Assembly: GCF_007970665.1 (NCBI RefSeq)
Contig: NZ_CP042430.1
Span: 806,001 to 870,000 of the forward strand
Source: Baekduia soli
GTDB lineage: Bacteria; Actinomycetota; Thermoleophilia; Solirubrobacterales; Solirubrobacteraceae
Length of the DNA: 64,000 bases
Reading direction: 5' to 3'
Shown here: one piece after another, positions 32,003-33,020 of the stretch
Layout of the letters: the number at the start of each line of letters is the position of its first letter
Numbering within the stretch: position 1 is the stretch's first letter
The notes under the pieces: model-generated
Told to the model about the DNA's origin: nothing
Seen by the model: only the letters and a program-made list of their open reading frames with translations
Databases searched by the model: none
Program-made: the position numbers and the translations under genes

Positions 32003-32111
32003 CGGCGGCGGGCCATCTCCGTCCGGGCAGCGACGCCGGCCTCCGAAGACCGTCACAGGTCGTCGGAATGGGGTGCTACATTGCGCCTACCAGAGAAAGG
32101 AGGTGGTCCGA

Positions 32112-32159
32112 ATATCTAGTCATAGTACTTGCGGGACCCTGGAGGTGGCCGGCCGCTAG
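32112..32159 (+). CDS. Possible 15-codon peptide with AUA start
   Basis: Eight bases after the GGAGG core of the extended ribosome site, a frame reads ISSHSTCGTLEVAGR then TAG. The first codon is ATA; the only in-frame conventional start upstream is a GTG at 32103, inside the ribosome site itself. The ribosome site is unusually strong and ideally spaced, but the start codon is abnormal, so translation is uncertain. I do not recognise a family. Confidence 0.3.
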   Translation: MSSHSTCGTLEVAGR

Positions 32160-32283
32160 ATCGGTCGGGGCTGGAGTTGATCCAGCGAATCCACGCCGGG
32201 CCACCCTCGCCCCTGTGATGCCGGGTTTCGTCCCTCCGGCCGTCAGACCGTCACGGTGCGAGCAAAGTCCAGTCCAGTGGTGT

Positions 32284-32320
32284 GCGAAGGGCGCCGCGGC
32301 AGCGGCGTCCTTCGCCGTTT
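32284..32320. terminator. Intrinsic terminator between gyrA unit and HNH gene
   Basis: A 14-pair stem (GCGAAGGGCGCCGC with GCGGCGTCCTTCGC, one G-T pair) around loop GGCA is followed by CGTTT. It can serve both the plus-strand unit and the convergent HNH gene. Confidence 0.8.
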
Positions 32321-32359: not shown

Positions 32360-32944
32360 CTACGCCGCGGCCTCGGCGTCGGCCGGCAGCCAGTGGCGCC
32401 ACGCCGCCGGGATCGTCGGCGTCGCGACGTGGATGAACACGTGGGGCTGGGGCATCGTTGGCGTGCGCCGCGGATGCATCCCCGCCTTGTCGGGCAGGTG
32501 GTCGGCCTTGCGCCGGTTGCAGGGCGCGCACGAGGCGACGATGTTGTCCCACGTCGACGAGCCGCCCTTGGAGCGGGGGATGACGTGGTCGACGGTCAGG
32601 TTGGAGCGCGACCCGCAGTACTGGCAGGTCCAGTTGTCGCGGGCGAAGACGGCGCGGCGCGTGATCTTGCGCCGGTGCGTGTCGCGCGGGACGACGACGT
32701 AGGTCACGAGCCGGATGACGACGGGCCGCGACATCGTCGCGCGCTCCGAGCGCAGCTCCCAGGTCGCGTTCTCCACGACCTCGGCCTTGGCCTTGAGCAG
32801 GAGCACCACGGCGCGGCGCACCGTGCACACGTTGACCGGCTCGTACGACGCGTTGAGGACGAGCACCCGGCCACCATCACGTCCGCGTCGCCGGTGCTCG
32901 TCGGGCGACGCGGACCGCATCGGGTGTGGTGGCGGGAGGGTCAT
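32360..32944 (-). CDS. HNH endonuclease family protein
   Basis: 194 residues from the ATG at 32944. A GTG at 32866 would give the family-like start VLVLNASYEPVNV, and no start has a good ribosome site. The HNH domain holds paired cysteines CQYCG near 125, DHVIPRSKGG near 138 and the CAPCNRRKAD pair near 158. The N-terminal region LNASYEPVNVCTVRRAVVLLLKAKAEVVE is conserved in actinobacterial homologues. Their DNA target and biological role are unknown. The gene converges on gyrA and is followed by the bidirectional terminator. Confidence 0.88.
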   Translation of the reverse strand: MTLPPPHPMRSASPDEHRRRGRDGGRVLVLNASYEPVNVCTVRRAVVLLLKAKAEVVENATWELRSERATMSRPVVIRLVTYVVVPRDTHRRKITRRAVFARDNWTCQYCGSRSNLTVDHVIPRSKGGSSTWDNIVASCAPCNRRKADHLPDKAGMHPRRTPTMPQPHVFIHVATPTIPAAWRHWLPADAEAAA

Positions 32945-33020
32945 GGGACCGCGATTCCACGCGGAACCGTACCACCCGGACCTGCGGGGATCCGCCGCCT
33001 TGTCGCGCCGGATCCGCCGC

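Follow-up and report, generated by a model that had tools for sequence, protein, structure and literature searches.

Organization of the locus

The 64-kb window analysed here (64,000 nucleotides (nt) of Baekduia soli contig NZ_CP042430.1, positions 806,001–870,000) contains the genes dnaA, dnaN, recF, gyrB, and gyrA in a row, followed by a gene for a structured RNA and by a convergent gene encoding an HNH protein. The RNA gene extends from the inferred transcription start (+1) to the end of the terminator at 32089–32320 on the forward strand, as delimited by conservation and by the alignment to the Rfam family RF02471, which starts at 32089. The −10 element TACATT (32077–32082, +) is identified by its sequence and by the conservation of TANNNT among members of the family, and the inferred +1 is the A at 32089, 7 nt past it. 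Of 260 members, 203 have a TANNNT that ends 4–9 nt ahead of +1, and none has one in a control window. Downstream of +1 is a 16-nt complement of the 3' tail of 16S ribosomal RNA (rRNA), AGAAAGGAGGTGGTCC (32094–32109, +), which has the form of an extended Shine–Dalgarno sequence with one G–U pair. A second motif, GGAGGTGG, is located at 32141–32148 (+), and a terminator hairpin with a 14-base-pair stem and a short U tail at 32284–32320 (+). The terminator stem (32284–32315) has a calculated energy of −30.9 kcal/mol and a z-score of −5.0; the terminator is absent from the output of simple scans, which also list no sigma-70 promoter at the locus. The GC content of 40-nt windows is 50–55% at 32060–32139, compared with 62–85% in the flanks.

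An earlier note on this DNA had described the −10 box, the 16S-tail complement, the A/T-rich patch, the second motif, and the terminator, all of which are found at the locus. The note had also proposed a conservation check of the block 32094–32160, and this check showed the block to be conserved in relatives. Judging from these features, the unit is an independent conserved RNA gene with a promoter, a structured RNA, and a terminator. In an order-level relative (locus L024 of genome G034, approximately 1484–1576 on the minus strand) the RNA lies between gyrA and the HNH gene but is inverted, with the HNH gene upstream and gyrA downstream and opposed, which fits an independently promoted gene. 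The convergent HNH protein of the window (32360–33010, −) has a weak NCBIfam match to the HNH segment of IscB, with 65.8 bits against a cut-off of 175, and is probably an ordinary HNH endonuclease.

Distribution of the RNA

A DNA match to the region is present in 37 of 41 genomes, comprising that of the window and 40 relatives; in one of them (G002) the match is at the terminator only. R1, a covariance model built from 49 sequences to represent the 5' domain, matches 121 of 199 genomes of the class (E-value 0.001) and 150 of 396 genomes of the phylum (E-value 0.01), with the window genome included in both counts and nearly always one match per genome. Sixty of the lower-scoring phylum matches were inspected, among which L241 is a chance match and L225 is cut by a contig end. 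The pattern AGGAGGTGGTCC-N15-45-GGACNNNNGAGGTG, run on named genomes, identified at least 120 stretches, and the 80 titles listed are those of Actinobacteria except for two titled Acidobacteria; because the window and the Rfam consensus were used jointly to design the pattern, it favours members common to both. The Conexibacter and Solirubrobacterales loci found by the pattern have the same gyrA and HNH neighbours as the window, and the neighbour genes vary among clades.

The RNA is also present in the phylum of L041, a locus from a record titled Acidobacteria, in which R1 matches 35 of 149 genomes. The motif is present at 25 of the 28 distinct places inspected there (30 loci, two places being represented twice) and absent from three. 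One of the genes neighbouring the RNA in the L041 genome resembles an ADOP permease. A phage origin and a plasmid origin were considered and rejected, as viral contigs contain no exact matches to the pattern and a search of plasmids with the window block was likewise negative.

The member set consists of 261 loci, which correspond to 234 distinct blocks after the removal of repeats of place or sequence. The counts exclude three relatives of the window whose 5' motif is missed by the patterns (L016, L023, and L026), a second copy of the window together with weak matches from its own genome (L031–L034), the locus at the contig end (L225), and chance R1 matches in which no such RNA is recognizable by eye (L241, L270, L274, and L275).

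Structure of the RNA

The 5' domain is predicted to form a helix, P1, in two parts. P1a pairs CCAG (32090–32093, +) with CTGG (32139–32142, +), and P1b pairs GUCC (32106–32109, +) with GGAC (32134–32137, +). The purine bulge between the two parts (32094–32105) carries the 16S complement. The sequence of P1a is CCAG/CUGG in the window and CACG/CGUG, CGCG/CGCG, or others elsewhere, with double changes in three of its four pairs. The GUCC/GGAC sequence of P1b is invariant in 119 of 119 sequences because the pattern fixed that motif; in two deep members (L231 and L232) P1b is UGAUC/GAUCA. Among 119 of 147 sequences, P1a and P1b together contain 133 double-change cells, compared with 56 in shuffled alignments; 97.6% of the cells are paired, and slid partners reach at most 47%. 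The number of P1 pairs with a double change, which is three, is no higher than in the shuffles, whereas the cell counts and the score are higher.

The 5' strand of the second helix, P2, is formed by GGUG (32144–32147), which is part of the second motif and overlaps the GAG GTG codons of the reading frame described below, and by CCGG (32149–32152). Its 3' strand is CCGG-GC-CACC (32196–32205, +), which is preceded by a conserved AAUCC motif (32188–32192, +). AATnC followed by YACC is present in 167 of the 261 members, compared with 4 in reversed sequence. The pairing of the second GAGGUG with the downstream CACC, with covarying flanks, is possible at 125 of 147 loci (mean of 63 and maximum of 74 in 200 permutations). 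A stricter test anchored on AAUnC, which misses many members, recovers the helix in 142 of 261 (permuted mean 50, maximum 65). A hairpin with the stem GCCGG/CCGGC and a GUCC loop at 32230–32233 is located in the 3' part of the RNA (32220–32240, +). Four of its five pairs have double changes among 27 sequences, and the GUCC loop is also present in the Rfam Ms1 consensus.

P1a and P2 were proposed by eye and then tested statistically; as the double changes across members support, both helices covary. RNAalifold applied to 27 relatives recovered P1b and the 3' hairpin and neither P1a nor P2. Folding calculations provide counter-evidence to this structure. For the 71 nt taken in isolation, the fold of lowest energy is not P1 (z-score +1.2), and the full-length minimum-energy fold does not contain P1 either. 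Both this full-length fold and RNAalifold on the 27 relatives pair the first GGUG, which belongs to the 16S complement, with CACC, so that only the flanking covariation favours P2 with the second GGUG. The pairings of the first and second GGUG with CACC may alternate.

Kinship with Ms1

The model of RF02471 (Ms_IGR-5, the Ms1 RNA) aligns end to end with the window at 32089–32268 (+), covering model positions 1–184 of 184, with 38.7 bits and a genome-wide E-value of 5.4e-7; the next matches have E-values of at least 2.3. According to a 2022 survey (PMC9130861), this model covers only species close to mycobacteria. The RF02471 scores are 175 bits in mycobacteria, 98 in Nocardiopsis, 80–84 in Geodermatophilaceae, 73 in Frankiaceae, and 48–51 in the two records titled Acidobacteria, before the 38.7 of the window. 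Eight of 18 pattern loci pass the cut-off of the family, including those of Blastococcus, another member of the Geodermatophilaceae, and a member of the Frankiaceae. The RNA of the window has P1a, P2, the 5' motif, and the GUCC hairpin, by which homology to Ms1 is judged, and the covariation spans mycobacteria and the clade of the window. It also has its own promoter, and its genome lacks a detectable 6S RNA, as is typical of Ms1-type RNAs. The Rfam families Chloroflexi-1 and Scr6925 were rejected as alternative assignments because their matches are below the cut-offs.

The assignment to Ms1 has to accommodate several contrary observations. The score of the window RNA is below the Rfam gathering score of 45, so that it is not a formal member of RF02471, and its homology is argued from the gradient of scores and the shared helices. 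Ten of the 18 pattern loci are likewise below the cut-off. The neighbours of the window RNA, gyrA on one side and the genes for the HNH protein and prephenate dehydratase on the other, are not the neighbourhood of known Ms1 genes, and the window lacks the HAD-hydrolase synteny that served as a search key, not necessarily a defining one, in the 2022 survey (PMC9130861). Taken together, the RNA of the window is almost certainly a homologue of Ms1. The suggestion in the earlier note that the unit might be a conserved regulatory RNA is thus borne out by its kinship with Ms1.

The loci of Blastococcus/Geodermatophilaceae and Frankiaceae (L035, L064, and L059) score 73–84 bits, above the RF02471 cut-off. 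The survey lists 14 orders for Ms1 and none in the Frankiales and Geodermatophilales, and a search of its text for the terms 'thermoleophil' and 'acidimicrobiia' returned neither (PMC9130861). The members described here extend Ms1-like RNAs to the Frankiales and Geodermatophilales, left empty in the survey, and to the Thermoleophilia and Acidimicrobiia, which it does not mention in the text searched.

A conserved short reading frame

A conserved frame, ATA...TAG, is located at 32112–32159 (+) and has 15 codons in the window, with the predicted product (I/M)SSHSTCGTLEVAGR*. It is the 15-codon frame with an ATA start that the earlier note had pointed out, and it runs from the ATA at 32112 to the TAG at 32157–32159. 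Across loci the frames are 10–22 codons long. In members compared side by side, the block ends with GAG GTG NNN NNN NNN and a stop codon. The pattern ends at GAGGTG and so does not reach the stop; at the 120 loci that it identified, the fifth codon after GAG is TAG in 95, TGA in 15, and TAA in 10, and nothing else. When 27 loci retrieved by their similarity to the window, a query that includes the stop, are added, a stop codon is present in 147 of 147 (TAG 118, TGA 17, and TAA 12) and TGG in none, and at six neighbouring offsets no stop occurs in any of the 147 loci. Ten different spacings, from 31 to 49 nt, separate the Shine–Dalgarno sequence from GAGGTG. Nevertheless, a frame open from a start-like codon 4–14 nt past GGRGG is present at 120 of 120 pattern loci (+1 frame 33, +2 frame 0), and a canonical ATG, GTG, or TTG start is in phase at 105 of 120 (+1 frame 3, +2 frame 0). 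Among all members, the frame is present in 261 of 261 and has a canonical start in 207, whereas a control with deletions of 1–2 nt retained 90 frames with any start and 30 with a canonical start out of 522. A recombination control, with a mean of 233 of 261 frames open and 184 canonical, is uninformative because nearly all members share the same phase, and the deletion control was used instead. The frame is also present in mycobacterial Ms1 loci.

Most members start with TTG, ATG, or GTG; six members from the genus of the window (L001–L006) have ATA or ATC, and a canonical start is present in 9 of the 27 loci that the similarity search added. Some of these data speak against a genuine frame. 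Fifty-four of the 261 members (42 of the 234 distinct ones), including the window, have only a near-cognate start (ATC, ATA, ATT, CTG, or ACG were counted); as such codons are common, the start in these 54 members is placed by position. If near-cognate starts are admitted, chance alone leaves the +1 frame open in the 33 of 120 loci given above. Furthermore, R1 rewards CTAG, so that the members found with R1 are biased for the stop. On balance, the frame is not a chance feature, as indicated by the stop-codon and frame tests, on which a reading of the RNA as exclusively non-coding was also rejected. The frame is very probably translated, by the same comparative evidence.

The stop codons bear on whether the RNA is an ordinary Ms1-type binder of the polymerase core in which the frame is a passive by-product of the constraints on the RNA. 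Homology to Ms1 and the overlap of the codons with paired segments are what such an explanation predicts; however, TAG, TGA, and TAA interchange at one codon to the exclusion of TGG, and the starts stay in phase at the Shine–Dalgarno distance despite the variable loop. Pairing requires none of this, which makes a by-product very unlikely.

Translation of the frame is distinct from a function of its product. The RNA might be a compact messenger RNA for a conserved micropeptide, with the short peptide as its product, since the frame, its start, and its stop are conserved, the residues E-V are present in 241 of the 261 members, and D-S is frequent near the N terminus. Yet E and V coincide with the bases of GAGGUG that are held by the P2 pairing, and the adjacent residues vary freely. 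In 18 members the stop is in another frame relative to GAGGTG, one base earlier in 15 and two bases later in 3. Twelve of these members belong to the class of the window and six to further families within the phylum; all were identified by R1, whose score favours CTAG. They have GGA GGT and unrelated endings such as SGGGSS or SGGDCR, while start and stop are kept. E-V is also lost in L239 and L240, so that 20 members lack it in all. The bulk of the RNA is, moreover, a structured untranslated 3' part, and a micropeptide as the product is quite unlikely. Since the frame and the end of the peptide change while start and stop stay, selection seems to act on translation over this stretch and not on the peptide. 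The proposal in the earlier note of a tiny gene with a non-canonical start therefore stands as far as the frame is concerned, the ATA frame being homologous to that found in all 261 members, and fails with respect to the peptide, which is unconserved in deep lineages; the term 'peptide gene' is probably beside the point.

Complementarity to the 16S rRNA tail

The sequence GGATCACCTCCTTTCT has two sites with at most one mismatch in the 5.2-Mb genome: one exact copy, which was taken as the putative single 16S 3' end, and the site in the window, on the minus strand, where the single mismatch corresponds to a G–U wobble. The run of pairing with the 16S tail, G–U pairs allowed, is 16 nt long in 92 of 114 members found with the model and at least 15 nt in 104 of 114; among the 110 distinct ones, the numbers are 91 and 101. 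At the four positions facing U, A is replaced by G in 44 of 456 cells, and at the five positions facing C, G is replaced by A in 2 of 570. As R1 penalizes such changes and the members are related, these counts support pairing with 16S rRNA and do not prove it.

Such a complement could serve as a trap that captures 30S subunits, with a weak start slowing their release; sequestration of 30S subunits was among the options raised in the earlier note. The length of the pairing run, the asymmetry of the substitutions, and the presence of the same complement in CC2171, a small RNA (sRNA) of Alphaproteobacteria, are consistent with a trap. On the other hand, five positions each have a broken complement in 6–7 of 114 members, and the wobble position has one in 1 of 114; the conservation of starts and stops points to productive translation, and the conservation of P1b would be unneeded. 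In addition, a cell contains approximately 400–600 Ms1 molecules and approximately 2800 ribosomes (PMC4191392). A 30S trap is therefore unlikely. A pure anti-anti-Shine–Dalgarno role was rejected, because A occupies the wobble position in 14 of 114 members, so that the G is not fixed; variation compatible with pairing remains. The position of the frame behind it indicates that the 16S complement is a Shine–Dalgarno sequence first.

Neighbouring genes

A short frame together with a terminator resembles a leader peptide, and the RNA might act as a leader or attenuator of a neighbouring gene; a gene for transfer RNA (tRNA)-Glu lies just downstream of it in four relatives from the class. The downstream HNH gene of the window is, by contrast, convergent, the neighbours differ by clade, and Ms1 homologues have been published as separate transcripts, which together render a leader highly improbable. 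The four relatives (L200, L228, L229, and L231; same class, family f5) carry the RNA just upstream of a tRNA-Glu(TTC) gene. In a scan of 52 loci for tRNA linkage, Glu was found at four short class-level loci, Gly/Cys at L041 (L246 is the same place), and tRNA-Sec at L055, at a distance of 1.3 kb. A general tRNA linkage was rejected, as the other 45 of the 52 loci have no tRNA.

A proposed ribosome-gated RNA

The anatomy of the 5' domain brings the reading frame and the fold together. In P1, the full-length 16S complement occupies the bulge and the start codon occupies the loop. The frame passes through P1b, P1a, and the 5' strand of P2 and reaches its stop just past the P2 strand. A translating ribosome must melt all three. 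The best explanation, which we put forward tentatively, is that the locus is an Ms1-type small RNA gene in which the 5' domain is a translated mini-open reading frame (mini-ORF) and folding is gated by ribosomes. Ribosomes would load via the extreme Shine–Dalgarno sequence, and plentiful initiation would keep the RNA open. When initiation is scarce, as in stationary phase, the RNA would fold into a form that binds the polymerase core or is stable. In this way it would inform the transcription machinery of the capacity for translation. Owing to the weak starts of many members (ATA, ATC, TTG, CTG, and ACG), operation of the gate would hinge on initiation factors. That the binding of polymerase or the stability of the RNA is set by ribosomes translating the 5' domain is possible but somewhat doubtful.

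Published properties of Ms1 provide the background to this proposal. Ms1 binds the RNA polymerase core without sigma and is abundant in stationary phase, and Ms1 without its internal bubble binds polymerase less (PMC4191392). In stationary Mycobacterium smegmatis, Ms1 accounts for more than 60% of the reads in a polymerase sample (PMC11077062). Core binding by RNAs of this type has been published for M. smegmatis and Streptomyces coelicolor. Two considerations run counter to gating by ribosomes: most Ms1 sediments in gradient fractions with RNA polymerase, with ribosomes at the bottom (PMC4191392), and the 6S RNA present in the Acidobacteria-titled phylum raises the possibility that the RNA originally had a role other than binding polymerase.

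Ms1 is treated as non-coding in the parts of the Ms1 papers examined (PMC9130861, PMC4191392, PMC11077062). No mention of a mini-ORF was found in these parts, and the frame may have been reported before. In the collection of papers searched, no publication was found joining 'Ms1 RNA' with Shine–Dalgarno and 6S RNA, or MTS2823 with ribosome profiling or short open reading frames. The hidden frame behind an extreme ribosome-binding site in the Ms1 family suggests that ribosomes control this RNA. Start and stop codons preserved in deep branches of the phylum and also in a second phylum, despite a changing peptide, would mean that the RNA ties the supply of RNA polymerase to the availability of ribosomes, which is an open question in growth-rate control.

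Comparison with known systems

Ms1 has been described as structurally related to 6S RNA (PMC9130861). The 6S RNA model (RF00013) has no match at an E-value of 0.01 in the window genome (G000) or in two relatives, the three actinobacterial genomes included in the search. Among 21 carrier genomes from the Acidobacteria-titled phylum, 6S RNA is above the cut-off in 17, below it in 1, and absent from 3; carriers that keep 6S RNA alongside an Ms1-like RNA thus exist. With the two RNAs occurring together in a second phylum, the storage of polymerase may have been acquired later. If the RNA binds polymerase in carriers of 6S RNA, it would speak against the proposal that each species has one type of abundant polymerase RNA (PMC11077062).

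CoRP of Corynebacterium is associated with polymerase, and its authors state that partial translation cannot be excluded (PMC11077062). It is approximately 500 nt long, is flanked by tRNA-Glu genes, and has close homologs only in Corynebacterium according to the authors (PMC11077062); its likeness to the window RNA is by description only.

CC2171 (RF01867) opens with the same complement of the 16S tail as the window RNA. Its model scores 21.7 bits in the window, below the gathering score of 75, and the similarity is mainly that of the shared 5' segment; conversely, R1 has no clear match on CC2171 loci, the best reaching 12.5 bits with an E-value of 0.04. Twelve loci from plasmids and chromids, out of 21 records with a match, were sampled. 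A frame of 24–26 codons (V/M-S-H/N-C...) begins 7 nt past GGAGG at nine of the 12, which are CC2171-type loci (L282–L286 and L288–L291, from Methylobacterium, Azospirillum, Sphingobium, and Skermanella plasmids), and the stops differ even where the peptide is the same (TGA in L284 and TAA in L288). CC2171-type RNA may be, from these frames, another translated 'sRNA'. Five of six loci match the Rfam CC2171 model with 68–84 bits, and two of these five pass its cut-off of 75. The remaining three loci (L287, L292, and L293, from Azospirillum plasmids) carry a longer gene of 57–59 codons (MSHGA...) behind the same extended Shine–Dalgarno sequence and seem not to be CC2171. In the Rfam structure of CC2171, a long-range helix directly precedes the terminator, and, unlike the family of the window RNA, CC2171 has no clear copy of GAGGUG. 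The likeness of CC2171 to Ms1-type RNAs may reflect kinship or, perhaps, convergence. A broader reading, according to which Ms1 and its relatives are not non-coding but ribosome-gated RNAs, unfolded by free ribosomes through a mini-ORF with the longest possible Shine–Dalgarno sequence and storing polymerase only when initiation is short, and the same plan of 16S complement, mini-ORF, long-range helix, and terminator in Acidobacteria and in CC2171 makes them one widespread class of translation-sensing RNAs, is somewhat unlikely.

The closest counterpart of the window RNA is Ms1 itself. Polymerase binding is a feature of Ms1, and the window RNA is known from its sequence. The RNA of the window is origin-proximal, with dnaA-dnaN-recF-gyrB-gyrA upstream, as are 84% of Ms1 genes (PMC4191392). 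Ms1, MTS2823, and scr3559 have the same 5' start, P1a, P2, AAUnCC motif, and 3' hairpin with a GUCC loop as the window RNA, and, like it, their own promoter and terminator.
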